Shown: positions 15,611-43,246 of the stretch, piece by piece
Position numbering within the stretch: the first letter of the stretch is position 1
How the letters are laid out: each line of letters opens with the position of its first letter
Assembly: GCF_000380985.1 (NCBI RefSeq)
Contig: NZ_KB905692.1
Span: 62,001 to 126,000, forward strand
DNA: 64,000 nt
Reading direction: 5' to 3'
DNA from: Proteiniphilum acetatigenes DSM 18083
Lineage (GTDB): Bacteria; Bacteroidota; Bacteroidia; Bacteroidales; Dysgonomonadaceae
The notes under the pieces: model-generated
The model's input: the letters and a program-made list of their open reading frames with translations, nothing else
What the model was told of the DNA's origin: nothing
Database searches by the model: none
Program-made: the position numbers and the translations under genes

Positions 15611-15677
15611 GTGTCATTTTTCTTTTATCCTTTATCATATTGCATAGTCGAACAGAATAGAATATGCTTTATATTTG
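15611..15677 (+). promoter_or_regulatory. AraC-type activator element and -7 box before the gene at 15833
   Basis: Half-sites GTGTCA (15611-15616) and TTATCA (15632-15637) are in direct orientation 21 bp apart, with CTTTT starting at 15622 between them. The -7 box TATATTTG is at 15670-15677, 48 bp from the central CTT. This is the weakest of four matching sites; 15 of 29 positions agree with the PUL2 site, but the spacing is the same. Confidence 0.5.
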
Positions 15678-15832
15678 TTTAATATTTTCACACAGTTTGC
15701 AATTTTATCTATATTTTTGACAACCTTATTTTAAAAAATAAAAAAGTCTACCGATATTCGTCCGGAAAAATCAGAGAATAGTAGATTTTCTGAAATGTAA
15801 AAAAAATATGTGACCAGTAATATAAGATTCCC

Positions 15833-16789
15833 ATGATGAAGTATAAATTAAAATACCTGATATTGATATTTTTTTTCTTTTTTCCATTCTTTGCTTTTAC
15901 CCAATGCAATACTACAACAAATTCGCGGGAAATAATCCGGGACAGGAATTTTCACAATGGAATCAAGGTACAGGGACATACCACATCCTATCCGGCTCCC
16001 ATCGACACATTATATCCGTTTAAATATTCAACTGATACCGTCTATTGGCTATTGCCACAGTGGGGAAGTAAACTTGTAATGCAAAATATTCCGCCTCTTA
16101 TTGTGGATGATTCTATTATTTACCGTAACAAAGCAAAAAAAGTATCCTTTTTTAAAAATAAGAGTAAAGCTGTAGAGATCACATTGGAAGTGATTGCTTC
16201 AGAAGAATATGAACATCCGAGACAAATGAATGAGGATTGGCCGCATTTATTGTTCGAGCAATATTTCAATACACCCCTAAAATTAATAGAGACTGATAAA
16301 TTGGTTTACAAAACAAAATGTAAATTGCTATATTGCAGTAACAAAATGGGAGAACAATTCAATCCCGATCTCCACACAGCACAATTTTCTCAATACTTCA
16401 CCATCCAGGACAACAACAAAGACTCCGAAAGCTATGGCGATTTTTTCTGGTTCGGACTTCCATTTTACGACTACCGCTATGAAAATATCGAACTCTATGC
16501 GGCGCAGGATATTGGTAAGGATGACGCATCAAACAAGTTCATTTTCTCTGTAGCTTCCCGAAATATTTTCGACGGAACATTACAGGATAAACAATGGATA
16601 ACCATCGACAAAGATATTTTACCTTTTATAAAGGAAGCTTTTAAAACAGCACAGGAAAGGGGATATCTTACCGGTTCGAAATTTGAAGATTTAGCAATAA
16701 CTACAATGAATGCAGGCTGGGAAGTTCCCGGAACATTCGATTGTGGAATAGTTTTAGAATCTCCTTCACTAACAGCCATATATCATTAA
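15833..16789 (+). CDS. Secreted protein of unknown function, possible member of the rhamnose regulon
   Basis: The product has 318 residues, with a second possible ATG 3 nt downstream. A strong signal peptide ends near FAFTQ (residues 1-23, with a run of Phe). The mature part is rich in aromatic and beta-strand segments (STDTVYWLLPQWGSK, YGDFFWFGLPFYDYRYENIE) and ends with a helix (ILPFIKEAFKTAQERGYL) and a strand with Cys (TFDCGIVLES). I do not recognise the family; a secreted carbohydrate-active jelly-roll domain is a possibility only. It is monocistronic in appearance and plus-oriented, divergent from PUL1 and upstream of PUL2. Its promoter carries a degenerate form of the element found before the PUL2 and GH78 operons. 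Confidence 0.75.
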   Translation: MMKYKLKYLILIFFFFFPFFAFTQCNTTTNSREIIRDRNFHNGIKVQGHTTSYPAPIDTLYPFKYSTDTVYWLLPQWGSKLVMQNIPPLIVDDSIIYRNKAKKVSFFKNKSKAVEITLEVIASEEYEHPRQMNEDWPHLLFEQYFNTPLKLIETDKLVYKTKCKLLYCSNKMGEQFNPDLHTAQFSQYFTIQDNNKDSESYGDFFWFGLPFYDYRYENIELYAAQDIGKDDASNKFIFSVASRNIFDGTLQDKQWITIDKDILPFIKEAFKTAQERGYLTGSKFEDLAITTMNAGWEVPGTFDCGIVLESPSLTAIYH

Positions 16790-16868
16790 AAAAGCCAGGG
16801 CAGAAATAAAAAACAGCTAAAATACAAAATAATGGTATCATGAAAAATAAAAACTTCTTTAACATAAG

Positions 16869-16934
16869 ATATCATTTCACTTAGTCTGAATATCACTTTT
16901 TACAGCTAAAGAATACACAATAAAAGTAATTTTG
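16869..16934 (+). promoter_or_regulatory. AraC-type activator element and -7 box of PUL2
   Basis: ATATCA half-sites at 16869-16874 and 16890-16895 are direct repeats 21 bp apart, with CTTAGTCT at 16880-16887. The -7 box TAATTTTG is at 16927-16934, 47 bp after the C of CTTAG. The element matches 22 of 29 positions of the site before the four-GH78 operon. No TTTG -33 box is seen, consistent with an activator-dependent promoter. Confidence 0.7.
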
Positions 16935-17078
16935 TATAAATTTCATCAAAAACTAAGGGTAGATCGTCGAAATTTTAATTATTTTAATTGTACTCTAATT
17001 CATCCATATGACACAAAGAAATTATATATATCTCTTTGATAAAACTTTGTTTCTACCTATAAGGAAACATATATATTA

Positions 17079-17090
17079 CCCCCCCCCCCC
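17079..17090 (+). repeat. 12-C homopolymer in the PUL2 leader
   Basis: An uninterrupted run of twelve C lies about 145 nt after the predicted transcription start and about 230 nt before the first PUL2 gene, in otherwise AT-rich DNA. Such runs are prone to slippage. It may be a contingency tract or simply length-variable between cells. Confidence 0.85.
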
Positions 17091-17321
17091 GTTAACATTA
17101 ATAAACTTTAATTTTACATATACAACTAATATTCACTCTTATTTGCATGCAATGCCGATAAGAGCTGATTCCTGCTGTCTTCTGGTGAACTTTCATCTTT
17201 AGGCATACAACTTCAATATCTGCTCTTACTCAGATATAAGAATAAATTATCATGGAAAAATTGAAATATAATGTAACAATAAATAAGAATAAAAGAAAAT
17301 CTCTAATTAAAAATCGAATAT

Positions 17322-18665
17322 ATGAACAACAAATTGATCAAGAAGCATCCCTTAAAGACCACATGGACGCTGCTATTCGCATGTATATTGGCTATGTTTT
17401 CGTGTGGAGAAAATGACGATAACGAAAAAGGGAAGAGTGAATATGATCCCGGCAAGCCGGTGGAACTTACTACCTTTTATCCGGACTCAGGAAGATATCT
17501 GGAACAAGTGATGCTGGAGGGAAAGAACTTCGGTACCGATCCTGAGAAAATCAGAGTATATTTTAATAGCAAAAAAGCGGCAGTCATTGGTTCTACAGGC
17601 TCCAGGATGTATGTACTTGCTCCAAGATTGCCGGGCGATACCTGTGTGATCTCGGTAGCAATTGGTAATGATTCCGTTGCTTATGATCAAACATTCCGCT
17701 ATTTTTCGTCGGTTACAGTGAATACTATTGCGGGAAACGGCAATCAAGATGACTACCAGGATGGGGATCTTACTCAATCTATCCTGCAGCCCCGATATAT
17801 TTGTGTGGATAATGAAGACAACATCTTTATTACAACCAGAGGGCCTTATGAATTCGGTGGAACTAACGGTCATATGCACATTGTCAGAATTGATGAAGAA
17901 AATAACGAACTGATTACCATTGCCAGAGATGTTACTGCAAATATTCCGGCTGTAGATTTGGAAACGGGAATCATTACTATCTTAACTGAAACCACGGTTG
18001 GATCGTTTTTCACTCTCGATCCCAAGGAAATGTGGGCTCCCAGATTCCGAGAAATGAAATGGCCCCCCGCCGGAGACAGACCCACGGAAGGTTATAAACA
18101 TAGCGTGGTAGTGAATCCCAGTGATGGTTTTGTTTACACCCGTTACTATCATGGGCACATCGTAAAAATGAATCCCCGAACATACGAAGTGGAAACCATT
18201 TTTAAAACGGAACAAGGAGACAGCTATGGACTGACATTCAATCCTCTTGAACCAAACATTTTATATATATCGTTTTGGGGCAACTCTGGGGTTAATGCAA
18301 ACAGCATTTGTAGTATTGATATTACTGATCCGGAAAACACATTTAAAAAACTTTCCGGTTCCACTAGTGGCGGACATCGGGACGGAGCCTTGGAAGTAGC
18401 CCAATTCCGTAATCCCAGTCAGATTTATAGTGATGCTGACGGGAATATTTATGTGGCGGATTGTAGCAACCATTGCATACGAAGAATTACCCCGGAGAAA
18501 ATGGTGGAAACCGTGTTAGGGATGCCCGGTACTGCCGGGTGGAAAGACGGAGGAAAGGAGGAAGCCTTATTCAATCTACCCAGAGGACTTGGCATAAGCA
18601 AAGATGGCTCAATCTATGTTGCAGACTTAGGTAATGCCCGCGTGAGAAAGCTTTCCATCAATTGA
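17322..18665 (+). CDS. TIG/NHL-repeat surface lipoprotein, first gene of PUL2
   Basis: The 447-residue product has its lipobox Cys at residue 28 (LAMFSC). Residues about 45-130 form an IPT/TIG Ig-like domain (LTTFYPDSGRYLEQVMLEGKNFG). The rest is an NHL-type beta-propeller with repeats such as PSQIYSDADGNIYVADCSNH and PRGLGISKDGSIYVADLGNA. TIG-NHL lipoproteins are common at the start or end of Bacteroidales PULs and are thought to bind glycan at the cell surface. It precedes susC by 145 nt and is the first gene after the activator-type promoter at 16869-16934. Confidence 0.85.
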   Translation: MNNKLIKKHPLKTTWTLLFACILAMFSCGENDDNEKGKSEYDPGKPVELTTFYPDSGRYLEQVMLEGKNFGTDPEKIRVYFNSKKAAVIGSTGSRMYVLAPRLPGDTCVISVAIGNDSVAYDQTFRYFSSVTVNTIAGNGNQDDYQDGDLTQSILQPRYICVDNEDNIFITTRGPYEFGGTNGHMHIVRIDEENNELITIARDVTANIPAVDLETGIITILTETTVGSFFTLDPKEMWAPRFREMKWPPAGDRPTEGYKHSVVVNPSDGFVYTRYYHGHIVKMNPRTYEVETIFKTEQGDSYGLTFNPLEPNILYISFWGNSGVNANSICSIDITDPENTFKKLSGSTSGGHRDGALEVAQFRNPSQIYSDADGNIYVADCSNHCIRRITPEKMVETVLGMPGTAGWKDGGKEEALFNLPRGLGISKDGSIYVADLGNARVRKLSIN

Positions 18666-18810
18666 TTTTTTAAGGATCTCACCGAAATAATCAGGCTATT
18701 GTACCGCATAAAACAGGATTAAAAGACAATTATAGTTTATTGCTCCAGCCCTCTTTCTTCCTGAAGATAAGAATAAATAATACAAATAATAACATTATAA
18801 TTTAAACTAA

Positions 18811-21800
18811 ATGAAACGCATAACGTGTATAGTATGGATACTTTTATCCGGTTGCTTTCTTCTTCCGGCACAACAAAGCACTTTTGTCATGGAGGGAACC
18901 GTCTATGACGAAACGAAAACACCCTTGCCTGGTGTTACGGTCTACCTGAGAGATAAAATCAGTGTCGGAACAACGACCAACATAGATGGTAAGTTCAGCA
19001 TCCGTGCTTCCAGAGGAGACATGATCGTTTTCACCTTTGTAGGTTACAAAAGGATCGAATATTTAGTGACCGAAGAGAAGAAAGACTTGGAAATTGTCTT
19101 TTCTGAAACAGCTCAGGAATTGGATGAAGTGGTGGTTACCGGACTGGGTAGCCAACGAAAGATTTCAACAGTGGCTGCTGTAAGCAGTGTAGACGTGGGT
19201 GAACTGCAAACACCTGCGGCATCCGTAGCCAACCTGCTGGGAGGACGCGTAGCCGGTGTGATCTCCATGCAAACCAGTGGAGAGCCAGGGAAAAACATTT
19301 CCGAATTTTGGGTCCGCGGTATCGGCACTTTTGGCGCCAATGCCAGCGCCCTGGTATTGATAGACGGACTGGAAGGGAATATCAACTCCATCGATCCTGC
19401 CGATATTGAAAGCTTCTCCGTACTGAAAGATGCCTCGGCCACCGCGGTGTATGGTGTCCGCGGAGCCAACGGAGTAGTATTAGTGACTACCAAAAGGGGG
19501 CAAGTAGATAAATTGACAATCACAGGACGCGCCAATTTTTCCGTCTCCCGGTTGAACAGAGTTCCTGAGTACCTGCGCGCTTACGATTATGCGAAGTTAG
19601 CCAATGAAGCCAGAGTGGTACGCGGAGACGCACCCATATACTCCGATGTGGAGTTAGATATCATTAACGACGGTTCTGATCCCGATCTCTATCCGGATGT
19701 GAGTTGGCAAGACGAGGTACTCCGAAATCATTCTTTCACTCAATCATATTACGTGAGTGCACGTGGCGGCGCACAGGTAGCACGCTATTTCCTCAGTTTG
19801 GGAATAAGTAATGAAACTGCCGCTTATAATTACGACAAAAACAGTGTATATGCGGCAAACACCGGATACAACACTTATAACTACAGAGGTAATATCGATC
19901 TGGAATTATCTCCCTCCACTACACTCTATTTCGGTACGGATGGTTTCCTTTCCATTCAAAACAATCCGGGTGTTGCGAGTACTGACTATATCTGGTACGC
20001 GCAGTCAAATCTTAACCCGTTATTGTTACCCATAAAGTATTCCAACGGACAACTTCCGGCCTCGGCAAGCAGCGCATCGTTACGGTCCCCTTTGGTGATG
20101 ATCAACCACATGGGCCGTCGCACCGATCAGCAGTACAGGGGTAAGTTCACGTTAGCGATCGACCAGAATCTCTCCATGGTCCTGGACGGCTTGAAATTAA
20201 AGGTGCAGGGGGCATATGATCTATATAGCAACTTTTCAGAAGGAAGATACATTCAACCAGCTCTTTACCAGGCGGTAGGTCGAGACCAACAAGGAAAACT
20301 GATAACCATCGAGAGAGTGAAGGAAGGAGGGATCTCCTATGCCCGGGGAACGGATCAGTTCCGAAAATACCATTTTGAGAGTACGCTCAACTACGACAAA
20401 GTATTCGCCGAAGACCATCGCGCTTCAGGATTAGTCTATTACTATCTGAGCGATCAGAAATGGGCAAACGAAGGAACCAATAATCTCAGCGCGATTCCTC
20501 TTCGCTACCAAGGCGTATCCAGTCGCCTCACCTATGGATTCAAAGATACCTACATGGTAGATTTTAACTTCGGATATACCGGTTCGGAAAACTTCCAGCC
20601 CGGCAGACAATATGGATTCTTTCCGTCCATCGCTCTGGGATGGGTGCCTTCCAATTATGATTTCATGAAAAAACATTTATCATGGATCAGCTTCCTGAAA
20701 TTCAGAGGATCGTACGGCACAGTAGGCAATGATCGTATCAGTTCGCGCAGATTTCCTTACCTCACCATGGTAAACAGAGGCACTACCGGACCGTGGGGCT
20801 CGGCTTCCGTTGAAAGCATCACGGAATCCACAATCGGAGCCGATAACCTGCAATGGGAAAAAGCATTGAAAGCCAACGTTGGTATCGAAGCGAACCTGCT
20901 TGACGACAAGATACAACTTGTTTTTGACATGTTCAATGACCAGCGAGACGGTATTTTCATGGAACGTGTACAGATTCCGGATTATGCAGGTTTGGTTACG
21001 ATGCCTTTCGGGAATGTGGGGAAAATGAAAAGTTACGGCGCGGACGGTAATGCCAGTTTCACACATAATCTAAGCAAAGATATGTCATTTACCGTGAGAG
21101 GAAATTTCACTTATTCGAAAAACAATGTCCAGAACTGGGAAGAGGCCAATCCCAAATATCCTTATCAGGAAGCATCCGATTATCCATTAGGCACTATCCG
21201 TGGATACCAGTCGATCGGCCTTTTTAAAGACTGGGATGATGTAAGGAATAGTCCGGCACAATTTGGGACGGTAATGCCCGGCGATATCAAATACCGTGAT
21301 GTGAACGGTGACGGGGTGATAAACTCCGACGACAGGGTACCTCTGTCTTACAGTACCTACCCCCTGCTAATGTACGGATTTGGCGGTGAATTCAAGTATA
21401 AAAACCTGACAGTGGGCGTCCTTTTTAAAGGAACCGGCAAGACCGATTTCTTCCATGTGGGATACAATGGAAATGGCACCGGATATGTACCTTTTTACAA
21501 CGGGATCAACGGGAATGTACTGAAGATCGCCAATGATCCAGCCAACCGATGGATCCCGGCAGATTATGCAGCAGCAAACGGAATTGATCCGTCGTTAGCG
21601 GAAAACCCTAATGCCCGTTATCCAAGATTGACATACGGGTACAACGAAAACAATTCACAATTGTCGGACTTCTGGAAAGGAGATGCACGGTATTTACGCT
21701 TACAGGAAGTAACCATCAATTACAATCTGAAAAATTCATTCCTGCAAAAAATAAAAGTTCAGTCCATCGATCTTCAATTAGTAGGTAATAATTTGCTATT

Positions 21801-21903
21801 ATGGGATAGAGTGAAGCTGTTCGATCCGGAGCAAGCTCACCGCAACGGCGAAGTATACCCGATTCCCACGACCTACACATTACAAATGTATATCAACTTG
21901 TAA
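18811..21903 (+). CDS. SusC/RagA-family TonB-dependent transporter of PUL2
   Basis: The product has 1030 residues: a signal peptide (to about 20), a carboxypeptidase-D regulatory-like domain (about 27-110, MEGTVYDETKTPLPGVTVYL), a plug domain (about 112-230, SALVLIDGLEGNINSIDPAD and KDASATAVYGVRGANGVVLV), and the barrel ending YTLQMYINL. No STN domain is present. It imports the glycan fragments produced at the surface by the PUL2 system, presumably rhamnose/arabinose-containing oligosaccharides judging by the neighbouring GH78 and GH127 genes. susD follows after 13 nt. The coding sequence looks more GC-rich than PUL1. Confidence 0.95.
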   Translation: MKRITCIVWILLSGCFLLPAQQSTFVMEGTVYDETKTPLPGVTVYLRDKISVGTTTNIDGKFSIRASRGDMIVFTFVGYKRIEYLVTEEKKDLEIVFSETAQELDEVVVTGLGSQRKISTVAAVSSVDVGELQTPAASVANLLGGRVAGVISMQTSGEPGKNISEFWVRGIGTFGANASALVLIDGLEGNINSIDPADIESFSVLKDASATAVYGVRGANGVVLVTTKRGQVDKLTITGRANFSVSRLNRVPEYLRAYDYAKLANEARVVRGDAPIYSDVELDIINDGSDPDLYPDVSWQDEVLRNHSFTQSYYVSARGGAQVARYFLSLGISNETAAYNYDKNSVYAANTGYNTYNYRGNIDLELSPSTTLYFGTDGFLSIQNNPGVASTDYIWYAQSNLNPLLLPIKYSNGQLPASASSASLRSPLVMINHMGRRTDQQYRGKFTLAIDQNLSMVLDGLKLKVQGAYDLYSNFSEGRYIQPALYQAVGRDQQGKLITIERVKEGGISYARGTDQFRKYHFESTLNYDKVFAEDHRASGLVYYYLSDQKWANEGTNNLSAIPLRYQGVSSRLTYGFKDTYMVDFNFGYTGSENFQPGRQYGFFPSIALGWVPSNYDFMKKHLSWISFLKFRGSYGTVGNDRISSRRFPYLTMVNRGTTGPWGSASVESITESTIGADNLQWEKALKANVGIEANLLDDKIQLVFDMFNDQRDGIFMERVQIPDYAGLVTMPFGNVGKMKSYGADGNASFTHNLSKDMSFTVRGNFTYSKNNVQNWEEANPKYPYQEASDYPLGTIRGYQSIGLFKDWDDVRNSPAQFGTVMPGDIKYRDVNGDGVINSDDRVPLSYSTYPLLMYGFGGEFKYKNLTVGVLFKGTGKTDFFHVGYNGNGTGYVPFYNGINGNVLKIANDPANRWIPADYAAANGIDPSLAENPNARYPRLTYGYNENNSQLSDFWKGDARYLRLQEVTINYNLKNSFLQKIKVQSIDLQLVGNNLLLWDRVKLFDPEQAHRNGEVYPIPTTYTLQMYINL

Positions 21904-21916
21904 ATAAAACAGTATT

Positions 21917-23932
21917 ATGAAGTCATTCTATACAGACATTTTTAAACAAATTATGGTCTTTTTATCACTGATGATATCTTTCTCCTCTTGCAAGGACCTG
22001 CTCAGTGTCGACAACTATTTCAGTGATGAATTGAAGTTGGATTCCGTTTTCGCGCAAACACGCTATGTGGAGGCCTACATGTGGGGAGCTGCCAGTCTGT
22101 TCCCCGACGAAGGAAATTTATTACAGAATCAGCACACACCGGGTCCCTTGGCTACCGACGAGGCATTTACCAGCTTTCTTACATTACATGGCTATAACGG
22201 CATGCGCTTTGTTTTAGGCGAAGTAACGGCAAATAATATGCATTCATTCGGAGGCGTTTGGGGTAACATGTATAAAATTATCCGTAAATGCAACACCATA
22301 TTGGCGCGTATTGATGAAGCGGCCGACATGACTACCCGGGAACGATTCAATATCATAGGATACACCCGCTTTATGAGAGGATATGCTTACTATAATCTTC
22401 TTATGGATTTTGGGCCACCTATCATTTTAGGAGATGAGATCATTGAGTCTAATGCTTCGCTTCCGGAGTACGACCGTCCTCGAAGCACCTACGACGAAGC
22501 GGTAGAGTATATCTGCAACGAACTGGAGGCCGCTGCAGAGCATTTACCGTACACGGTTCCACTAATGGAATTCGGACGTCCTACCAAAGGGGCTGCCTAT
22601 GGCTTGATTGCCCGGATACGACTGATCCATGCCAGTCCGTTATATAACGGTGGTGATGTAGCCCGCACTTATTTCGGCAATTGGAAACGTTCTGCCGACG
22701 GCGCTCAATACGTATCCCAAATATATGATGAAAAACGTTGGGCATTAGCGGCTGCGGCGGCTAAACGAGTAATGGAACTACAAGTTTCAGGAGCTCCCAT
22801 GTACAGGCTGTTTACCGTTCAGTCGGACTCGGAAACCTCCACGCTGCCCGAGGGAGTTACCTCCGATCCCGATTATTATAAAGAATGGCCGGACGGAGCC
22901 GCAGGAATTGATCCCTACAGGTCCTATTCCGAAATGTTCAACGGCGAAGCGGTAATCCCGGTTAACCCCGAGTATGTCTGGGGACGAAAAAGTGGTGCAA
23001 TAACAGCAAATACCCAGATGGTCTTTCCGCAAAGGTTAGACGGATGGAATGGGATGTGTATTACCCAAAAAGTGGTGGATGCCTACTCCATGATAGACGG
23101 ACGCTCTATCAATAATTCCAGTGACAGGTATCCGTACAGCGAAACCGGATTTTCCACCAACGTGCAAACATTTTCAGGATATCGTCTGAATGCAGGCGTG
23201 CACAACATGTATGTGAGTCGTGAACCTCGCTTCTATGCTTCCGTAGGCTTTAGCGAATGTTTCTGGCCCATGTCGTCTTCCACCTCTTCGGGATATTATA
23301 ACCAAACCATTACATACTATTATAATTCCCCGAATGGAAAAGGCGGTGTGAGTTCGCCCCAGGATTATCCCATTACCGGATATGTGATCAAAAAATTCGT
23401 TCATCCTTCGGATGCCTGGGGAGGAACAAATGCAAGAAGAATGGACAAAGGGTTTCCTATTATCCGTTACGCAGAGATTCTCCTCTCCTATGCTGAGGCG
23501 CTGAACAACCTGACAAGCAATCATACGATTGAAATGGGTGGACAGTCAATGGTACTTTCCCGAGATATGAGCGAAATCAGGAAGGCTTTCAATCAGGTAC
23601 GTTATCGTGCGGGATTGCCCGGCATAACGGGAACAGAGGATGCAAGCCGGATACAGCAACTCATTGAAGACGAGAGATTCATTGAGTTCCTTTTTGAAAA
23701 CCGTCGTTATTACGATGTAAGGAGATGGGGTATTTATGAAGAAGTGGAAAGCGTACCAATAAGAGGAATGAACGTAGAAGGAACAAAAGAGGTCTTTTAC
23801 ACACGGGTAATCCCCAACACGGCCCGTATTGGCTCGCGAATCGTGAATAAACGCCTGAATTGGCTGCCGATACCACTCAATGAAGTCAGATTATTACCCT
23901 CATTAGACCAGAATCCCGGTTGGGAAGACTAA
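21917..23932 (+). CDS. SusD/RagB-family glycan-binding lipoprotein of PUL2
   Basis: The 671-residue lipoprotein has its lipobox Cys at residue 25 (SFSSC). SusD features include the helical N-terminal half (MYKIIRKCNTILARIDEAA), YAEILLSYAEALNNL, RFIEFLFENRRYYDVRRWG, and the C-terminal LNWLPIPLNEVRLLPSLDQNPGWED. It lies directly after susC (13 nt) and is followed by a DUF4361-like lipoprotein whose ATG is 17 nt after this stop. It captures glycan at the surface for the SusC channel. It is about 100 residues longer than prototypical SusD. Confidence 0.95.
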   Translation: MKSFYTDIFKQIMVFLSLMISFSSCKDLLSVDNYFSDELKLDSVFAQTRYVEAYMWGAASLFPDEGNLLQNQHTPGPLATDEAFTSFLTLHGYNGMRFVLGEVTANNMHSFGGVWGNMYKIIRKCNTILARIDEAADMTTRERFNIIGYTRFMRGYAYYNLLMDFGPPIILGDEIIESNASLPEYDRPRSTYDEAVEYICNELEAAAEHLPYTVPLMEFGRPTKGAAYGLIARIRLIHASPLYNGGDVARTYFGNWKRSADGAQYVSQIYDEKRWALAAAAAKRVMELQVSGAPMYRLFTVQSDSETSTLPEGVTSDPDYYKEWPDGAAGIDPYRSYSEMFNGEAVIPVNPEYVWGRKSGAITANTQMVFPQRLDGWNGMCITQKVVDAYSMIDGRSINNSSDRYPYSETGFSTNVQTFSGYRLNAGVHNMYVSREPRFYASVGFSECFWPMSSSTSSGYYNQTITYYYNSPNGKGGVSSPQDYPITGYVIKKFVHPSDAWGGTNARRMDKGFPIIRYAEILLSYAEALNNLTSNHTIEMGGQSMVLSRDMSEIRKAFNQVRYRAGLPGITGTEDASRIQQLIEDERFIEFLFENRRYYDVRRWGIYEEVESVPIRGMNVEGTKEVFYTRVIPNTARIGSRIVNKRLNWLPIPLNEVRLLPSLDQNPGWED

Positions 23933-23949
23933 ACAATAAATTTATAGTT

Positions 23950-24912
23950 ATGAAACGAATATATATGATAAATAAAAACCGAAGAAAGGGATTGGGAATC
24001 GCATTGCCGGTGTTCCTTCTCTTTATCACCGCCACTTGTGACAGAGATGAAGTGTTTGAACGCGAACAATACAAAAATGTATTTGCCTTAATCAGTGAAA
24101 GCGACAACGTGTCGCGGAAATTTCACAAACTCGGTGAAGAATCGGTAGGCTATGTGGCGGCCTCTCTCGGCGGAACCAATCCAACCACCAAAGATATTGT
24201 AGTAGATCTAGTGGAGGATCAATCATTATTGGATGATTTTAATAAAACCAACTACGACACGGATATATCAAAATACGGAAAACCTCTTCCCGAGAGTAAA
24301 TACGATATAGACACATACCGGTTTACTATTCCGGCAGGAGAGATAAGCGGCAGGCTCCCCATCCGGATAAGACCCGACGGCCTTTCACCCGATACGGCTT
24401 ATTTCATTTCTTTGCGGGTAGATTCCCATTCAGCGTATGAGGTGAATCCTGAAAAAAGTTTTGTTTTATACCGGATAAGGACTAAAAACTACTGGGCGCA
24501 GGCAGACGGGAACACCAATTATTCCATGAGAGCAAAACTCCGGGTACAGGGATCGGCCAGCGAACTGGAAATGCCCGGAACAAAGGTGATGCATCCGATC
24601 ACGCAGAACAAAGTCCGGATAATGGCGGGCAATGAAACATACGAATCCGATGTGAACGTATTCAACAGGTTTGCCATCGTGCTGGAGATTGATGAAGACC
24701 ATAAAGTAACCATCACACCGTATAACAATGTGGAAGTTACCCAGGTGGACGGAGATCCGGACTTTCCCAACATTTTCAAAATAGAAGACGACGGTTTCAA
24801 GACCTACAAAACGTTCCTGCTCAGGTATGATTACAAAAGCGGAAATACGATTTATGAAATGAAAGAAGAATTAAGGCTCGAATTCAGTGAAGATGAAGAT
24901 GAAAATGAATAG
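23950..24912 (+). CDS. SusE-position lipoprotein, DUF1735/DUF4361-like (BT_3044-type)
   Basis: I place the start at ATG 23950 (320 residues), because the upstream TTG at 23920 lies inside susD and before the signal peptide. The lipobox Cys is about residue 30 (FITATC). The N-terminal part (YKNVFALISESDNVSRKFHKL and VAASLGGTN) resembles DUF1735. The C-terminal half (PGTKVMHPITQNKVRIMAGN to the acidic tail EDEDENE) resembles DUF4361 of BT_3044-like proteins. These are surface-located accessory glycan-binding lipoproteins encoded after susD. Family names are from memory. Confidence 0.8.
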   Translation: MKRIYMINKNRRKGLGIALPVFLLFITATCDRDEVFEREQYKNVFALISESDNVSRKFHKLGEESVGYVAASLGGTNPTTKDIVVDLVEDQSLLDDFNKTNYDTDISKYGKPLPESKYDIDTYRFTIPAGEISGRLPIRIRPDGLSPDTAYFISLRVDSHSAYEVNPEKSFVLYRIRTKNYWAQADGNTNYSMRAKLRVQGSASELEMPGTKVMHPITQNKVRIMAGNETYESDVNVFNRFAIVLEIDEDHKVTITPYNNVEVTQVDGDPDFPNIFKIEDDGFKTYKTFLLRYDYKSGNTIYEMKEELRLEFSEDEDENE

Positions 24913-24958
24913 CTTTTGCAGATATCGGAGACAGTAACCAATTAATTTATTTGGAATA

Positions 24959-26029
24959 ATGAAAACAAAATTCTTAAAATACAGCTTATGTTTCCTGTTG
25001 ATCAGTTATGGGACAGGATGTGATGATTACAATCAAAAGGTGATTGAAGAAAATATTTATGTGAACCGTGCGGAATTGTCGCTGTTTGTGGGAGAAACCA
25101 TTCAGCTGACGGCAAGTCCTACAGACGGAACATACCACTATTCTTGGTCGAGCGAAGATCCCACGGTAGCGACCGTATCTTCAACCGGTCTGGTGGAAGT
25201 GGTTGGCGAAGGGTTTACCAATATCGTGGTACGCGGAGGCGATCTATCCACAAAAGTACCTCTTACAGCCGTAATCAGAATACCTCTGGAAAATGTAGTC
25301 GTAAGTGAGCCCCTCCTGGAACTACTTCCGGGAAATAAAAAAACCGTACTCATCAGTTTTATTCCGGAAAATGCCAACGACATTCCTGCATATTCCTGGA
25401 GTTCGGAAAATCCGGATATAGCCACCGTTAGCGAAGGTGGTGAAATAACAGCCATTGATGAAGGTGTGACCAATATCGTCTATCGTATCGGCGAGATTGA
25501 GAAGAAAATTGTAGTGGACATAGCCTATACCCGTCCGTTCAAAGGGCCCCACATTCTTTCCGCAGCAACACCTTATGAACTTCCGGCGGCCAACTTTGAC
25601 CTTGGCGGCGAAGGGTCTGCTTTTCACGACAGCGATGCCACAGATTCTTCAGGACAAAACGGGAATTACCGTGTAAGCAACGGCGATAACAACAGCACCG
25701 CGGTTGACATAGAGGGCTTTGGGCTCAATGTCGGATGGACGGGTCCCGGAGAATGGTTACTCTATACGGTAGAGGTTTTGAATGAAGGGGATTATTTAGT
25801 TGAAGCACAAGTGGCGGTACCCGGCACAGGTAGCTTCCACATTGAAGTGGATGGAGTAAACGTGACCGGCACCATCGGTGTACCTGACACCGGCGGATGG
25901 GGGAGCTTCACGTGGGTTTCCACACCGGAAGATAAGCTGACTTTAACTTTGACTGAGGGAAGACATAAAATCAAATATTACTTTGAAGGGGGACACAACT
26001 TCAGGTCACTGAAGTTCACTAAAAAATAA
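24959..26029 (+). CDS. Lipoprotein with two Big_2 Ig domains and a CBM6-like module
   Basis: The 356-residue product has its lipobox Cys at residue 21 (YGTGC). Two bacterial Ig-like group 2 domains follow (about 33-108 and 110-188), each with the pattern YSWSSENPDIATVSEGGEIT. Residues about 200-356 form a CBM6-like beta-sandwich (AAIDFDLGGEG-type start, NVGWTGPGEWLLYTVEV, GRHKIKYYFEGGHNF). There is no catalytic domain. It is probably a surface protein that displays the CBM on an Ig stalk to hold the polymer near the SusC/D complex. It closes the first PUL2 transcription unit and is followed by a structured intergenic segment. Confidence 0.85.
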   Translation: MKTKFLKYSLCFLLISYGTGCDDYNQKVIEENIYVNRAELSLFVGETIQLTASPTDGTYHYSWSSEDPTVATVSSTGLVEVVGEGFTNIVVRGGDLSTKVPLTAVIRIPLENVVVSEPLLELLPGNKKTVLISFIPENANDIPAYSWSSENPDIATVSEGGEITAIDEGVTNIVYRIGEIEKKIVVDIAYTRPFKGPHILSAATPYELPAANFDLGGEGSAFHDSDATDSSGQNGNYRVSNGDNNSTAVDIEGFGLNVGWTGPGEWLLYTVEVLNEGDYLVEAQVAVPGTGSFHIEVDGVNVTGTIGVPDTGGWGSFTWVSTPEDKLTLTLTEGRHKIKYYFEGGHNFRSLKFTKK

Positions 26030-26176: not shown

Positions 26177-26242
26177 ATATCAAAATACTTAGTTTTATAT
26201 CATTATGACAGGGTTATAGAATAGAAAAAATATTTATTTTTG
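26177..26242 (+). promoter_or_regulatory. AraC-type activator element and -7 box of the esterase-GH127-GH78 operon
   Basis: ATATCA half-sites at 26177-26182 and 26197-26202 are 20 bp apart with CTTAG at 26188-26192. The -7 box TATTTTTG is at 26235-26242, 47 bp after the C of CTTAG. The arrangement matches the PUL2 and four-GH78 promoters to within one or two bp. Confidence 0.7.
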
Positions 26243-26323
26243 TAAAACTGGATCGTAAAGCCAGAAAAATTACTAATAAAGATTTTGCTTTATCCAAAAA
26301 ACACAATTAAACAGTATATAACA

Positions 26324-27253
26324 ATGACAATTTACCGGGATCTGCTTATCGTTCTATTTTTTGGGTTTTGCCTTATGGTAAAGGGACAGGAATTGTTGCC
26401 GCAACAGGGACAGGAGTTTCTATTGTATGATAAAACAGATGAGATCATCGCAGAGGAGCATATCTATGATCGGGGAAATAACCTGATCATCACTAAAGTA
26501 ACCAATCCTTCGTTGACACCTTTCATACCATCTGATGGAAATATGGATAAAGCAGCCGTGATTATCTGTCCCGGTGGTGGATATCAAACCCTGCATATCC
26601 AACGGGAAGGATTCAGGGTTGCGGAGGCTTTCAGCAAACAGGGAATTGCGGCATTTGTGCTTAAATATCGCCTGCCTGACGAGGAAATCGTAACAGATAA
26701 ATCATTCGTACCATTAAAAGATGCACAACGTGCTATCCAACTCGTGCGTGAAAATGCGAAAAAATGGGGTATCGCTCCCGGTAAGATCGGGATAATGGGA
26801 TTCTCGGCAGGAGGGCATCTGGCCTCCTCTGCCGGAGTACATTATGATTCCACACTGATTGAGAACAAACGGAATACAAACCTAAAACCCGATTTTATGA
26901 TTCTCGTCTATCCGGTGATCAGTTTCAATGATAGTATCGGACATGTCGGCTCAAAAGATCATTTGCTGGGACAACATCCCGGGCAAAATTCGGTAAAATT
27001 CTTCTCCAACGAATTACAAGTGAATAGAGATACCCCTAAAACCATTCTCTTTCATGCCGGAGACGATACGGTTGTTCCGGTGGAAAATAGTCTTCGTTTC
27101 TATAATAAATTACTTCAAAATAGTATACCGGCCGAAATACATATTTATTCCAAAGGGGAACATGGTTTTGGGAGTACTCCATCCTTCGAGGATTGGTTCA
27201 ATCAATGTGTCCGCTGGATGAAGGTAGAACAATTACATTCTATAAACAGGTGA
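26324..27253 (+). CDS. Secreted alpha/beta-hydrolase esterase (BD-FAE / acetylesterase type)
   Basis: The start is set at ATG 26324 (309 residues); a TTG 39 nt upstream would place 13 odd residues before the signal peptide. After the signal sequence (FFGFCLMVKGQE) the fold shows the oxyanion segment ICPGGGYQTL, the nucleophile elbow GFSAGGHL with Ser at residue 161, an acid loop HAGDDTVVP and the catalytic His in KGEHGFG. This family removes acetyl or feruloyl groups from plant polysaccharides. It is the first gene of the operon with GH127 (3-nt gap) and GH78, so deacetylating the substrate before rhamnose/arabinose removal is a sensible role. Confidence 0.85.
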   Translation: MTIYRDLLIVLFFGFCLMVKGQELLPQQGQEFLLYDKTDEIIAEEHIYDRGNNLIITKVTNPSLTPFIPSDGNMDKAAVIICPGGGYQTLHIQREGFRVAEAFSKQGIAAFVLKYRLPDEEIVTDKSFVPLKDAQRAIQLVRENAKKWGIAPGKIGIMGFSAGGHLASSAGVHYDSTLIENKRNTNLKPDFMILVYPVISFNDSIGHVGSKDHLLGQHPGQNSVKFFSNELQVNRDTPKTILFHAGDDTVVPVENSLRFYNKLLQNSIPAEIHIYSKGEHGFGSTPSFEDWFNQCVRWMKVEQLHSINR

Positions 27254-27256
27254 AAT

Positions 27257-29128: not shown

Positions 29129-29178
29129 ATAATCTGACATATATTCATTTGAAAATCTTTCAATAAAAATTTGTAATC

Positions 29179-31863
29179 ATGATATTAACCCACAAATACT
29201 CCCAATTGGCAATTCTAAGTATCCTCTTAATCTTCACTTTGGGATGTACCCATTCGGACAGATTTTCCATATCTGACCTTACCTGTGAAAGTTTAAAAGA
29301 TCCTTTGGGGATTAACACGCTCCATCCCCGGTTTAACTGGAAAAACAATTCCAACCGCCAGGGAGCCATTCAAACGGCATATCAGATCTTAGTGGCCGAC
29401 GATATCCAAAAGCTGAATGAAAAAGACGCTGATGTATGGAATTCCGGAAAAATAACCTCCTCATCGAATATATGGGTTGAGTATGCAGGAAAACCGCTTC
29501 ACCCCGGACAACTCCTGTTCTGGAAAGTACGTGTTTGGGACGAGAACGGAAATGAATCATCATGGAGCAAACCGGCCCGATTCGGTGTCGGGTTGCTTGA
29601 CAAGAACGATTGGACGGCTTCTTATATCGGATATCCTTCTGAAAAGGGTTTTTATAGTTGTCCGCAACTGAGAAAAACATTTTCTCTCAATAAAACGGAT
29701 AAAAAGGGAGCATACCTTTTGCATGTAAATTCGCTCGGATATCACGAAGTTTTCATGAACGGAAAGAAAGTGGGCGAAGATGTATTATCGCCGGCAGTAT
29801 CCCAGTTTGACAAGCGTTCCCTGATTGTGACATACGATGTGACGCCTTTCCTGAAAACAGGGAAGAACGATCTGGTCATCTGGCTGGGGAGCGGCTGGTA
29901 TACCGAAGGGTTACCGGGGGTTGCAGGCAACGGCCCTGTTGTAAGGGCACAGATGGAACATGTTCACAAAGGAACCAGTGAAACTGTGTTATATACCGAT
30001 GCTTCCTGGGTGGGGAGAGAAAGCGAATATAGCCGTATCAGCGACTGGATGACGGGAAGATACGGAGGCGAAACCGTTTCCGGTAATCTGGAAACACAGC
30101 ATATAGTTTTTGAAGCGCCGGATGAATTGAAATGGGGAGAAATTGCGATTGCTGAAATACCGGAGCATGAAGTAACTCCTCAGACAGTTGAACCCAACAG
30201 GATCATGGAAACCATACAGCCTGCCAAAATAGAAAAACTCAATGACAGTACTTTTCTGGTGGATATGGGTAAGTGCCTCACCGGATGGTTCGAAATAACT
30301 TTTCCCGATCTGGAAAAATCACAGGAAATTGTCATGGAGTATGCCGATCATCTGGATAATAACGGAGGATTGGCAAAACAAGGACAAACGGATAAATATA
30401 TTGCATCGGGCACTGGAACAGAATATTTCATCAACAAATTCAATTACCATGGCTTTCGCTATGTAAAAATCTCTAACCTCAAACAGATACCCCAATTAAC
30501 AGATATAAAAGCCCATCTTATTCATACCGATTTTGAATTTACGTCTACATTTGAATGTTCGGATGAAGATCTGAACCGTATCCACGATATGATTGCCTAT
30601 ACGCTCCGTTGTGTGGGACTTGGCGGATACCTGGTGGATTGTCCACAGATTGAAAGATTAGGGTACGGAGGGGATGGAAATGCATCCACCATAACGGCTC
30701 AAACAATGTTTCATCTAGCCCCACTCTATAATAATTGGCTTCAGGCATGGGAAGATGTGATTCGTGAAGACGGCAGTATGCCTCACACGGCGCCTAATCC
30801 TTACGCAGCAGGAGGAGGACCCTATTGGTGTGGATTTATTATTTCCGCTTCATGGAACACCTATCAGCATTATGGTGACCGAAAGGTATTGGAAAAATAT
30901 TATCCTGTAATGCAAAAATGGCTGGGATATGTCGATCAATACAGTGTAGACGGATTACTAAAAAGATGGCCTGACACCGACTACAGGAACTGGTATCTGG
31001 GAGATTGGGCCACACCGGAGGGAGTCGGCAATCCTGTTAATACAGATGAAAGATCGGTCGATCTGGTAAATAACTGTTATATTTCCGTCTGTCTCAGTCA
31101 GATGGAGAATATAGCCGGAGTACTGGGAAAAACCGAAGAAGCCAGATATTATTCCGGTAAGAGAGCGCAATTGAACAATATAATTCATGAAACCTTCTTT
31201 GATGCGCAACAGGGTTATTATGCCACCGGATCGCAGATCGATATTATTTTCCCGATGCTTGCCGGTGTGGCTCCTGTAGAATTAAAAGACGGTCTTACAA
31301 ATACATTGATTGAACGGACTACAAAAGAATATGGTGGTCATTTGAATACCGGTCTGGTCGGGATACCGGTAATGATGGAATGGGCGGCAATCAATAACCA
31401 GCCCGACTTTATATACTCCATGCTGAAGAAGAAAACACATCCCGGATATTTATATATGCTGGAACAAGGAGCCAACACCACCTGGGAGCATTGGGCAGGG
31501 GATAGAAGCCGGATACATAACTGTTTTAACGGTGTAGGACAATGGTTCTATCAGGCCATAGGAGGAATTCATTCCATTCCCGGAAAACAGGCTTACAGTG
31601 AATTTCTGGTAGATCCTCAAATTCCGGAAGGCGTCACCTGGGCCAAAACAACACAGGAGACACCGTACGGAAAAATAGGTGTTCATTGGGAGCTCCATAA
31701 TGAAACGATGACTATGGAAGTGGAAGTGCCTGTCGGTTCAATCGCAAAACTGATTTCCCCCGAATCCGCCATCAGTACCCGGATAAATCAGGAAGTGATT
31801 ACGGATCAATCCGATACGATCTCCCTTAAAAGTGGAAAATATTTTGTGGAATATTCTTTTTAG
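29179..31863 (+). CDS. GH78 alpha-L-rhamnosidase, lipoprotein
   Basis: The 894-residue product has its lipobox Cys at residue 23 (IFTLGC). Domain order is as in GH78: N-terminal Ig-like domain (RFNWKNNSNRQGAIQTAYQI), a carbohydrate-binding beta domain (YLLHVNSLGYHEVFMNGKKV), a linker beta-sandwich, the (alpha/alpha)6 barrel and a C-terminal beta domain. The family motif is DCPQIERLGYGGD at 487-499, with the general acid Glu492; the partner Glu770 is in ANTTWEHW. It removes terminal alpha-L-rhamnose. As the last gene of the esterase-GH127-GH78 operon it probably acts on a decorated plant pectin or arabinogalactan-type glycan. It is one of five GH78 proteins in the window. Confidence 0.93.
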   Translation: MILTHKYSQLAILSILLIFTLGCTHSDRFSISDLTCESLKDPLGINTLHPRFNWKNNSNRQGAIQTAYQILVADDIQKLNEKDADVWNSGKITSSSNIWVEYAGKPLHPGQLLFWKVRVWDENGNESSWSKPARFGVGLLDKNDWTASYIGYPSEKGFYSCPQLRKTFSLNKTDKKGAYLLHVNSLGYHEVFMNGKKVGEDVLSPAVSQFDKRSLIVTYDVTPFLKTGKNDLVIWLGSGWYTEGLPGVAGNGPVVRAQMEHVHKGTSETVLYTDASWVGRESEYSRISDWMTGRYGGETVSGNLETQHIVFEAPDELKWGEIAIAEIPEHEVTPQTVEPNRIMETIQPAKIEKLNDSTFLVDMGKCLTGWFEITFPDLEKSQEIVMEYADHLDNNGGLAKQGQTDKYIASGTGTEYFINKFNYHGFRYVKISNLKQIPQLTDIKAHLIHTDFEFTSTFECSDEDLNRIHDMIAYTLRCVGLGGYLVDCPQIERLGYGGDGNASTITAQTMFHLAPLYNNWLQAWEDVIREDGSMPHTAPNPYAAGGGPYWCGFIISASWNTYQHYGDRKVLEKYYPVMQKWLGYVDQYSVDGLLKRWPDTDYRNWYLGDWATPEGVGNPVNTDERSVDLVNNCYISVCLSQMENIAGVLGKTEEARYYSGKRAQLNNIIHETFFDAQQGYYATGSQIDIIFPMLAGVAPVELKDGLTNTLIERTTKEYGGHLNTGLVGIPVMMEWAAINNQPDFIYSMLKKKTHPGYLYMLEQGANTTWEHWAGDRSRIHNCFNGVGQWFYQAIGGIHSIPGKQAYSEFLVDPQIPEGVTWAKTTQETPYGKIGVHWELHNETMTMEVEVPVGSIAKLISPESAISTRINQEVITDQSDTISLKSGKYFVEYSF

Positions 31864-32203: not shown

Positions 32204-32205
32204 GT

Positions 32206-36740: not shown

Positions 36741-36766
36741 AATTTTAGATTTTTATTGAGTGAGGT

Positions 36767-39931: not shown

Positions 39932-39973
39932 CTTTGTAATGATTTTAAGATATCCGTGTTTTAAAATTATTGT

Positions 39974-40921: not shown

Positions 40922-41060
40922 TTTGATTTATTGATAAGATAATTAGTATTTAATTACGTACTATCCCAAGATAGCCGGTAAGTTATTTCTCTGTCGATGC
41001 ATTCTTTTCCTGACGGAGAAATATTTCCCTAATGGTACGTTTTCCTCTCCTGCCGACAGG

Positions 41061-42152
41061 TTATTGTTCTAATGGTACAATCTGTCCCTCATAAACAAGA
41101 GGTATTCTTATTCCGGGTTTTATTTCTCCGCTGGTAATATAAAATTTGTTTTCCCGTATGGCAATATTGGTAGTAACCGGAACGGGAAAAGGCACTATTC
41201 CCTCATGGACGAAGGTATTCGACATAGGGCTGTACACCCTGATGATATTCTCAAAACCCGGATGTTCGTACGATCCGGGAAGCAACTTCGCAACTCCACC
41301 GAAGAAGACAATGTTATCCAGATTCACAAGTGCGGTTCCCGCCATCACCGGAAAAAATCCCTGAAGTTGCGTCCACCTGTTTATATCCGGATCATACCTG
41401 TGCCCGTCTGTTAATACCTCCACATAACCGGAGGAACGATAATCCCGCCCACTGAAAAGATAAAAACCGGGATACTTTCCGTCTTCGAAGGCAACACTCA
41501 CTGCGTAACCCCGTGGATTACCATCCCAGGAAGGTAAAGCAACCCATCCTTTGTCCTTACGGTCAAGGTCTAGTACGAAAAAATGATTCGTTGCCTCTTC
41601 TTCGATCATCTTTTCCTGACCTCCGGCTATATATATTTTATTATTCAAAAGCGCACCTGTAGCATTTGCTAAAGGGACCGGCAAGGAAGGCCAATCATAA
41701 GAGAGCTTAAAAACTCCCCCTTCCTTATAGATGAGGAAGACATCATCAAAACACCGTTTCATGTCACATCCTCCTATACACAGCAGACCTTCTGCCAATT
41801 GTATGGACACGCCATAGGCAATAGCTGCAGGCAGAAAATCAGTTATAATCCCCCACTGAAAATCCAGGGTGTCCGTATATGCATGATAAAGTGTTCTCTC
41901 CCAACTCTTTTTTCCTCCCTCCCATGGCATCTTATCAGGAAAATTTGCTCCTCCCGCAATAATCAGTTCATTGCCGACAAATCCAGAAAATGCACCTGCA
42001 ACACCTCTGTTTTGTTCATTATCCGAAAGCGGAGGAAGAGAGTTCGAATTATTCCATTCTATCCGACAAGGTAATGGCAGATTATCCATTGCATACATGA
42101 CAGAAGTAGTACTCATGGCAATCAAAAAAGATATTATTACTTGACAACGCAT
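41061..42152 (-). CDS. nanM: Cyclically permuted Kelch mutarotase, N-acetylneuraminate epimerase type
   Basis: The 363-residue protein has a signal peptide (ISFLIAMSTTSVMYA), so it is periplasmic. It is a six-bladed Kelch-type propeller with repeats such as GNELIIAGGANFPD, NNKIYIAGGQEK and LDNIVFFGGVAKL. The order fits the cyclically permuted YjhT/NanM family of Bacteroidetes. NanM speeds conversion of alpha- to beta-N-acetylneuraminate released by sialidase. Its ATG overlaps the 3' end of the GntR gene by 16 bp, so the two are translationally coupled. Confidence 0.88.
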   Translation of the reverse strand: MRCQVIISFLIAMSTTSVMYAMDNLPLPCRIEWNNSNSLPPLSDNEQNRGVAGAFSGFVGNELIIAGGANFPDKMPWEGGKKSWERTLYHAYTDTLDFQWGIITDFLPAAIAYGVSIQLAEGLLCIGGCDMKRCFDDVFLIYKEGGVFKLSYDWPSLPVPLANATGALLNNKIYIAGGQEKMIEEEATNHFFVLDLDRKDKGWVALPSWDGNPRGYAVSVAFEDGKYPGFYLFSGRDYRSSGYVEVLTDGHRYDPDINRWTQLQGFFPVMAGTALVNLDNIVFFGGVAKLLPGSYEHPGFENIIRVYSPMSNTFVHEGIVPFPVPVTTNIAIRENKFYITSGEIKPGIRIPLVYEGQIVPLEQ

Positions 42153-42883
42153 TTTGAATGATGAATAGTTTCGTTTTTTTGTCGAATAAAAATCTTATAC
42201 ACCTCGAAATGTTGCTCTAATGCTCTTCTATAACCGTCTTCATCATTTTCTTTCAAATAGTGTAACAGATCCTGATGGGTGACAATACGCCCTTCTTCTT
42301 TGAGTTTAATATTGATAGGAGCCAGATATTCCTTGAATTTATCCTTTACAAAGGTCATAACCGGATGCACAATATTCTGAAACTCAGCGATGGTTTTATT
42401 TCCTGTTATCTGATACAATCTCGTATGGAAGGTAAATTCACTGAAAGGAGCATATTCATTGTTCTCATACATAATACCCACCTTTACAATTTCTTCGAGA
42501 TCTTCTATGTCTTTCGGCGTAATATTCCTGAAAATATCGCTGCATATTCCTATCTCTAATGCAATCCTGAATCCCAGAATATCAAATAACGCGTCTTCAC
42601 TTAAAATACGGGGATCTACCACCCGTTTCATTCCTCCAAGTATGGAGGGTTCCGAAAGTATCATACCTCTTCGGGTACGGGTTTCAATCATACCCATCAT
42701 CTTTAACCGGCTTAACGCTTCACGCAATACGCTCCGGGCTACACCTAAAGAAGCCGACAATTCCATTTCATTCGGAATAGGATCCCCCGTTTGAAGATCT
42801 TTCTCTCTAAAATAGGTCAAAAGTTTGTCTTCCACCTGATCCACCAGGGTAACAGAATTATTCTGAATTTTCAGTCTTTCCAT
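42137..42883 (-). CDS. GntR/FadR-family transcriptional regulator of the sialic-acid operon
   Basis: The 248-residue protein has an N-terminal winged helix (about 12-78, DPIPNEMELSASLGVARSVL and LSRLKMMGMIETRTRRGMIL) and a helical FCD sensor domain (about 100-235). It is of the same general class as E. coli NanR, but orthology is not shown. It is the first gene of the nan operon and overlaps nanM. Two palindromes matching the FadR-subfamily pattern TnGTnnnACnA lie upstream, one on its own -7 box, so it probably represses itself and the operon until sialic acid or ManNAc is present. Confidence 0.9.
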   Translation of the reverse strand: MERLKIQNNSVTLVDQVEDKLLTYFREKDLQTGDPIPNEMELSASLGVARSVLREALSRLKMMGMIETRTRRGMILSEPSILGGMKRVVDPRILSEDALFDILGFRIALEIGICSDIFRNITPKDIEDLEEIVKVGIMYENNEYAPFSEFTFHTRLYQITGNKTIAEFQNIVHPVMTFVKDKFKEYLAPINIKLKEEGRIVTHQDLLHYLKENDEDGYRRALEQHFEVYKIFIRQKNETIHHSKCVVK

Positions 42884-42931
42884 GAGTAATTGATATTTTA
42901 CGTACTTTATACGTCTTGTATTAATTATATG

Positions 42932-42974
42932 ATTTGTCTGACAAATATACGGTCAATATTTTTTAATAAACAAA
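42932..42974 (-). promoter_or_regulatory. nan promoter with overlapping GntR-type operator
   Basis: On the minus strand the -7 box TATATTTG is at 42942-42949 and TTTG at 42971-42974 (21-nt spacer). The perfect palindrome ATTTGTCTGACAAAT (42932-42946) overlaps the -7 box and contains TTGTCTGACAA, which fits TnGTnnnACnA. Binding there would block transcription of gntR-nanM-nanA and the following genes. Confidence 0.75.
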
Positions 42975-43013
42975 AAGTAATTTGCATTTTAACTAATAAA
43001 GTCCACTTTTTAA

Positions 43014-43028
43014 ATTTGTTTCACAAAT
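43014..43028. promoter_or_regulatory. Second GntR-type operator palindrome
   Basis: ATTTGTTTCACAAAT is a second 15-bp palindrome with the same arms (ATTTGT/ACAAAT) and a different 3-bp centre, 82 bp upstream of the first. It also fits TnGTnnnACnA. A pair at this spacing could support looping, or it could touch the divergent GH78 promoter region. Confidence 0.65.
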
Positions 43029-43178
43029 ACAAGCTTCTCAAGAATATTTTCTTAACTTTTAAGGAAATTGGAATGTGTTATCCATCCTTATGAATACATC
43101 AATAGTTCCCGACAGATTAAATTTAACCATTTACCACGAACCGGGTAAAAAATAATTTATATCCGACAATCCTTTCCC

Positions 43179-43246
43179 ATATCAAATAGCTTAGTCTTTA
43201 TATCATTTCGAATAATTTACAAAATGGAAATAATGTTTTATTTTTG
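43179..43246 (+). promoter_or_regulatory. AraC-type activator element and -7 box of the four-GH78 operon
   Basis: ATATCA half-sites at 43179-43184 and 43200-43205 are 21 bp apart, with CTTAGTCT at 43190-43197. The -7 box TATTTTTG is at 43239-43246, 49 bp after the C of CTTAG and 60 bp before the ATG. Confidence 0.72.

Follow-up and report, generated by a model that had tools for sequence, protein, structure and literature searches.

RhaR (BT3768) of Bacteroides thetaiotaomicron was reportedly identified as a positive regulator by Patel in 2008. In the excerpts of the literature cited here by PMC number, AraC-type rhamnose regulators of Bacteroides are characterized by direct repeats with a 21-bp periodicity (PMC3870299), the reconstructed Bacteroides RhaR regulon consists of a single operon (PMC3878776), and B. 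thetaiotaomicron RhaR is called non-orthologous to E. coli RhaR (PMC3870299). Here, we describe a direct-repeat element in a 64,000-nt stretch of the Proteiniphilum acetatigenes DSM 18083 genome (contig NZ_KB905692.1, positions 62,001 to 126,000), hereafter the window, in which positions are counted from the first base. The element precedes PUL2, a polysaccharide utilization locus (PUL), an operon for an esterase and glycoside hydrolases (GH) of families 127 and 78, and an operon of four GH78 genes. Judging from its sequence and its genomic distribution, it is probably an operator of RhaR that drives the rha operon together with rhamnosidase and SusCD operons. The element, its recurrence, the fixed register of its promoter box, its target genes and the related operator before rhaK were computed directly.

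An element in fixed register with the promoter box

The consensus of Bacteroidota promoters is TAnnTTTG, with TTTG as the -33 element, and araI1/araI2 of E. coli provide a comparison for the placement of an activator. At 16869 and 43179 the element matches ATATCA-N5-CTTAG-N5-ATATCA with zero mismatches, and at 26177 it matches the N4 version equally well (Table 1). The half-site period is 21 bp at 16869 and 43179 and 20 bp at 26177. An earlier note on this DNA had reported such direct repeats, with CTTAG or CTTTT between the half-sites, at four places; three are exact, and the fourth, at 15611, has five mismatches and is discussed separately below. The same note had placed the central C 47–49 nt before the box, which is borne out at the three exact sites and at 15611 (48 nt), and its count of 22 identities in 29 positions between 16869 and 43179 is right on direct reading. 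The gap from the end of the proximal ATATCA to TAnnTTTG is 30–33 nt. No TTTG lies 15–25 nt upstream of the box at any of the 13 exact sites before glycan operons of the genus; hence the absence of a -33 box, also claimed previously, holds for the three window sites and for the other ten. As far as sequence can indicate, the features of an activator-dependent Bacteroidota promoter are all present: TAnnTTTG, no TTTG at -33, and a site just upstream.

The exact pattern occurs three times in the 4,776,693-base genome, always within the window, and a backwards control gave no match. The family, represented by 101 genomes, has 14 matches in eight of them, with no backwards match in the 101 rows listed. 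Thirteen of the 14 are in seven genomes of Proteiniphilum, the genus of the window; the other, in a genome of a different genus (G045; G and C numbers denote genomes and contigs), lies inside ftsX without a box and was taken as chance. A wider scan of public genomes returned at least 116 stretches, mainly from unrelated taxa. TAnnTTTG is found at 46–49 nt at 13/13 genus sites and at 0/105 other distinct exact sites among the matches listed, namely the ftsX match and 104 from the wider scan. The contrast is weakened by the origin of the 105, most of which lie outside the Bacteroidota, where TAnnTTTG need not be in use. Approximately 15 of them are Bacteroidota by their record titles, and the box is missing there too; three of the 105 have a box out of register, one at 41 nt and two at 76 and 84 nt. 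With up to three mismatches allowed, our genome has 34 N5 places versus 21 backwards and 12 N4 places versus 11 backwards. Hence, only exact or near-exact matches are informative, and near-matches with two or three mismatches in this genome were set aside as mostly chance. The 17 fixed columns of the operator are invariant through the choice of the pattern and are no proof on their own.

All 13 genus sites precede operons headed by GH78, GH106, an esterase (esterase-GH127-GH78) or PUL2, the last of which we treat as one operon on the strength of gene orientation and spacing. The orthologous PUL2 operon of the X52 genome (G063) is also preceded by a site, exact sites lie upstream of the orthologous esterase-GH127-GH78 operon in G063 and G088, and the orthologous four-GH78 operon has exact or one-mismatch sites in G088, G053, G060 and G063. 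It is the first gene of the operon that has the site upstream, namely the 43307 orthologue in G088 and the 48840 orthologue in G087 and G075. In relatives the targets also include GH106 in G088 and, close to the rha genes, GH78 in G068. When the 13 sites were turned into a profile, seven more matches came up at E≤1e-6: G053 has three, and G060, G063 (on C55), G085 and G067 have one apiece. All seven lie upstream of GH78 or esterase relatives of the window genes, or upstream of a GH106 gene. Nine others had E values from 1e-6 to 1e-3; those in G064, G076 and G079 precede GH78 relatives, and that in G086 precedes a weak GH106 relative (26% identity). The G053 site before the esterase-GH127-GH78 operon (C1:2784392), a place where no PUL2 was seen, has lost the distal ATATCA and retains CTTAG along with the proximal half-site.

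The sole NCBIfam match of the GH127 protein (window 27257–29128) is to aceric acid hydrolase and reaches 141 bits, where the cut-off is 950, and a related operon in G088 includes an apiosidase-like gene. Together these give a faint hint of rhamnogalacturonan II as the substrate. A separate observation is a run of 12 C at 17079–17090, in the long leader that separates PUL2 from the 16927 box; the X52 equivalent reads CCCCTACCCC. The run is possibly a slippage tract or an assembly artefact.

A related operator before rhaK

Which protein would bind this element? The rha operon of P. acetatigenes, on contig C15 and outside the window, encodes rhamnulokinase, L-rhamnose isomerase, RhaT, an AraC protein and two GH78-type genes, and the rhamnulokinase, RhaA and RhaT models match above their cut-offs. 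The AraC protein, the product of the fourth gene, is 302 aa long and has AraC_binding and AraC-HTH domains, which make it soluble by its domains. The enterobacterial RhaR and RhaS models score far below their cut-offs on this protein, and no family model names it; from the operon context and the domains we infer that it is the RhaR of the literature.

In an initial scan, a matrix derived solely from the 13 glycan sites detected a related site upstream of rhaK in each of six genomes. We extended the rha-locus set to 26 stretches from 26 genomes, including the rhaR regions of 20 further genomes (514,152 positions on both strands; 22 of the 26 stretches contain rhaK by tblastn). At a score of at least 15, a cut-off chosen after the first matrix scan, the matrix matched 27 positions, and all 27 have a box in register. 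They correspond to 18 rhaK promoters, eight promoters divergent from rhaK and one glycan site of the training set (G068). At looser cut-offs the box was in register for 27/29 (≥12), 30/35 (≥10) and 31/46 (≥8), against a baseline of 932/514,152 positions. A score of 10 together with a box was reached by 2 of 10,500 first-order simulated upstream regions, versus 20 of 22 real ones. By a pattern written after inspection of the promoters, the operator is recognized in 21 of the 22 rhaK promoters, where the half-site period is 21 bp and the box lies at 47–48 nt; these promoters span four genera (15 in Proteiniphilum, four in g9, and one each in g12 and g15). TTTG is absent 15–25 nt before the box at 19 of the 20 rhaK sites examined, and the remaining one has TTTG at 24 nt. 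The earlier note had proposed looking for extra matches before rha genes, and a matrix trained on glycan sites does find the rhaK promoters. In other stretches, chosen for holding sites or near-matches, scores of at least 15 came with a box in 5/7 cases (ten stretches of our genome) and 13/15 cases (21 stretches of relatives). Of the 11 genomes that have sites at E≤1e-6, three carry rhaR and a glycan-operon site on one contig, namely G053 (within 67 kb), G060 (23 kb) and G068 (5 kb).

In more distant families, the top-scoring rha-matrix match exceeds -2 and has a box at 47–48 nt in seven of 20 rhaK upstream regions. All seven are among the ten in which RhaR is encoded within 10 kb of rhaK, versus none of the other ten (Fisher p=0.003); this split was made post hoc and the scores, from -1.3 to 15.2, are low, such that it is a hint only. 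An eighth distant-family genome, G153, has the box and a score of -11.2.

In nine relatives we observed a second operator-like site with a box, divergent from rhaK (Table 1). Eight of the nine score at least 15, and L200 scores 11.4. The next gene at eight of the nine is a relative of 2-oxoacid dehydrogenase E2, a neighbour that our genome lacks within the rha-locus stretch examined. The arrangement suggests that RhaR may also control a 2-oxoacid dehydrogenase operon in these relatives.

With RhaR as the presumed binder, a rhamnose signal and activation as the outcome would follow from its membership of the AraC family and from the role reported for Bacteroides RhaR. We propose that two RhaR subunits would occupy the two half-sites, each led by ATATCA, on one face of the DNA and two helical turns apart, and that ATATCA together with CTTAG would make up the full distal half-site. 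The proximal ATATCA would adjoin the position of the missing -33 element, where an AraC-type activator could touch the polymerase. L-rhamnose, or a derivative of it, would enter the cell and cause RhaR to recruit RNA polymerase to the rha operon and to the rhamnosidase and SusCD operons. Released rhamnose would then promote more release, in a feed-forward loop in which one cytosolic monosaccharide sensor takes the role that more commonly falls to a dedicated hybrid two-component sensor (HTCS).

Table 1. Predicted operators, promoter boxes, downstream operons and additional sites. Positions without a prefix are those of the window.
Feature	Position	Strand	Details
RhaR-type operator (predicted) of PUL2	16869..16895	+	Exact ATATCA-N5-CTTAG-N5-ATATCA
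Box TAATTTTG, promoter-type	16927..16934	+	47 nt past C of CTTAG (16880 to 16927)
RhaR-type operator (predicted) of esterase-GH127-GH78 operon	26177..26202	+	Exact match, N4 variant
Box TATTTTTG	26235..26242	+	47 nt past C of CTTAG (26188 to 26235)
RhaR-type operator (predicted) of four-GH78 operon	43179..43205	+	Exact match, N5
Box TATTTTTG	43239..43246	+	49 nt past C of CTTAG (43190 to 43239)
PUL2: NHL/TIG protein, SusC-like, SusD-like, BT_3044-like, Big_2/CBM6 protein	17322..26029	+	Pfam
BD-FAE esterase, GH127, GH78 operon	26285..31863	+	Pfam
Four tandem GH78 alpha-L-rhamnosidase genes	43307..54569	+	Pfam
Separate promoter element, 68 bp, not in the regulon	15612..15679	+	82% identical to C1:5467-5534
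Sites divergent from rhaK	L200:5340, L204:8544, L267:5199, L268:2918, L269:2922, L270:5124, L272:2901, L273:2944, L280:2969		

Site classes, alternative regulators and the extent of the regulon

The glycan sites and the rha sites form two classes that differ at fixed positions: CTTAG and ATATCA in the former versus CACAG or CATAG and AAATCA in the latter. When 28 sites selected from the two classes were aligned, T2, T4, C5, A6, A15, G16, T25, C26, A27 and T29 proved invariant. Sites with mixed features, having CACAG or CATAG centres, precede GH78 relatives in G085, G064, G079 and G042; the G085 site reads ATATCAAATATCACAGTCTTTATATCA, and those of G064 and G079 are centred on CATAG. The existence of such sites favours either one regulator with a graded set of sites or close paralogues. 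A profile combining both classes matched four sites in our genome at E<1e-5 (43179, the rha operon, 26177 and 16869), all of which were in its training set, and nothing further below E 0.027 among the 150 of 5,649 first-look candidates that were scored.

A paralogue of RhaR is indeed encoded in this genome (C15:69556–70434; 293 aa, 70% identical to RhaR), beside a PUL with a GH106 gene. This protein, or another of the AraC type, might control the glycan operons and leave RhaR with the rha operon only. Such a division would account for the fixed differences between the two site classes; a paralogue of about 70% identity is also present in G060 and G088, and the PUL that it adjoins here has a site scoring 23.0. 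We consider this division unlikely, since G053, G063, G068, G071, G075 and G087 have glycan sites and a single RhaR-like match each at E≤1e-30 (up to 23 first-look candidates scored per genome), and since intermediate sites bridge the two classes. The AraC protein encoded closest to the window (C1:132191; L057:6173–7066) was rejected as a candidate because it is absent at the syntenic place in G053, which retains the sites. Alternatively, an HTCS could sense an oligosaccharide and bind the 21-bp repeats. The architecture would fit, since HTCS sites are described as direct repeats averaging 21 bp in the excerpt of PMC3878776, and nine HTH_18 matches in our genome fall in open frames of more than 1,300 aa. 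Nevertheless, the window contains no HTH_18 match out of the 44 in the genome; on the contig, the HTCS-sized match closest to 43179 (C1:229667) lies ~124 kb away; and a related operator precedes the rha operon, which has an AraC gene of its own. We therefore regard an HTCS as very unlikely. The earlier note had allowed for either type of regulator; the AraC type is retained and the HTCS has become the less likely of the two, with the nine HTCS-sized frames elsewhere able, in principle, to act from a distance.

Without any regulator, the sequence could also be shared by chance or through promoter homology after duplication of upstream regions. Close relatives do have whole upstream regions in common, and promoter pieces are duplicated in this genome, as seen for 15612 and C1:5467. 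In contrast, the element is found before non-orthologous operons, the spacing between it and the box differs by up to 3 nt, the backwards control across the 101 genomes is empty, and the matrix matches at rha loci are in promoter register. An origin without any regulator is thus scarcely credible.

Several further observations weigh against RhaR as the common regulator. The differences between rha and glycan sites could mean that a paralogue of related specificity serves one class. A site at C15:78399, before a SusC gene by the paralogue, has a matrix score of 23.0 and a box at 47 nt, compared with 15.7 for the genome's own rha site; the combined profile missed it, and hence the list of targets is not closed. 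Five of the nine profile matches between 1e-6 and 1e-3 (G062, G100, G045, G048 and G055) are not clearly before glycan genes of the kinds listed above, and the G062 match has no box. G035 has rhaK and a relative of RhaR, yet its rhaK promoter, one of the 22, has no operator. Two of the seven matches scoring at least 15 in the ten stretches of our genome, and two of the 15 in the 21 stretches of relatives, are without a box. Sites at E≤1e-6 track RhaR weakly, being found in 11 of the 32 RhaR-containing genomes of the genus and in none of the seven without it, which is not significant (Fisher p=0.16). G064 has a weaker site (E 2.1e-5), and no RhaR was found in this genome, which is 77% complete. 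Finally, the genomes are mostly close relatives and the counts are not independent.

The C15:78399 site is possibly a fifth target in our genome, of RhaR or of its paralogue. Upstream of a second SusC gene by the paralogue, C15:70504 has a box at 47 nt and a score of 1.1; this and two other weak boxed sites before glycan genes, C1:14902 (9.3) and C1:42461 (11.3), were not counted. C1:847 (two mismatches, 22.4) and C3:333672 (19.4) have no box in register and were left out.

The site at 15611 is a different matter. It reads GTGTCA-CTTTT-TTATCA, with a spacing of 21 and five mismatches counted by eye. Its matrix score is 8.4, versus 29.6–40.6 for the 13 exact sites, and it is not among the genome-wide profile matches at E≤5, in a search that can miss weak sites. 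The 68-bp stretch to which it belongs, through to TATATTTG, recurs upstream of a GH20 gene at C1:5467. The core of this stretch has one copy in the X52 genome, before a gene that is the GH20 orthologue by eye, and the 15833 orthologue of that genome has no such element upstream. G002 has a match to the 15611 core with three mismatches. Given its mismatches, its low score, the missing profile match and its place in a separate repeated element, 15611 was rejected as a member of the regulon. Thus, the single AraC-type activator that had been suggested for four promoters can be kept for PUL2 and both GH78 operons, through their link to rha, and not for the gene at 15833 behind site 15611. The 15611 sequence is probably a copy of another promoter, which possibly serves a different regulator with 21-bp repeats.

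Comparison with described regulators

Taken together, our data make it likely that in Proteiniphilum-like bacteria RhaR grew from a one-operon regulator into a master regulator of rhamnose use. Differently headed GH78, GH106, esterase/GH127 and SusCD operons, in loci that have no HTCS of their own, would have acquired its operator, as would the 2-oxoacid dehydrogenase operon divergent from rhaK in several species. PULs lacking a dedicated sensor in their vicinity thereby gain a proposed regulator and signal, and other Bacteroidota can be scanned for a concrete operator. If it is true, a soluble AraC protein responsive to a monosaccharide, and not an HTCS that senses oligosaccharides, drives polymer degradation directly. 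RhaR control of PULs in Proteiniphilum was not found in the titles and abstract openings of the open-licence papers listed by our searches. The extension of RhaR control to glycan operons is the new part; the 21-bp repeat and the single-operon RhaR are already published.

The regulator proposed here resembles RhaR (BT3768) of B. thetaiotaomicron in being an AraC-family protein for rhamnose genes. Unlike the Bacteroides RhaR, with its one operon in the excerpt of PMC3878776, it has a related operator before rhamnosidase and SusCD operons as well. The sites also resemble those of HTCS_Rgu-1 and HTCS_Rgu-2, direct repeats of ~20–21 bp upstream of PUL operons that target rhamnogalacturonan, a polymer containing rhamnose; these two HTCSs are encoded within their own loci (PMC3878776, in the same excerpt), whereas none is encoded near the window sites on the contig. 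A single monosaccharide sensor for both polymer and monomer genes has a parallel in BT1754, the fructose/levan regulator, as excerpted from PMC5061871. Unlike BT1754, the RhaR of P. acetatigenes has the domains of a soluble AraC protein. A last parallel is RhaS of Erwinia chrysanthemi, a rhamnose regulator of the AraC family that, in the excerpt of PMC3870299, reaches polymer-derived sugars through rhiTN; this protein is proteobacterial, and we liken it to RhaR by the scope of its regulon.

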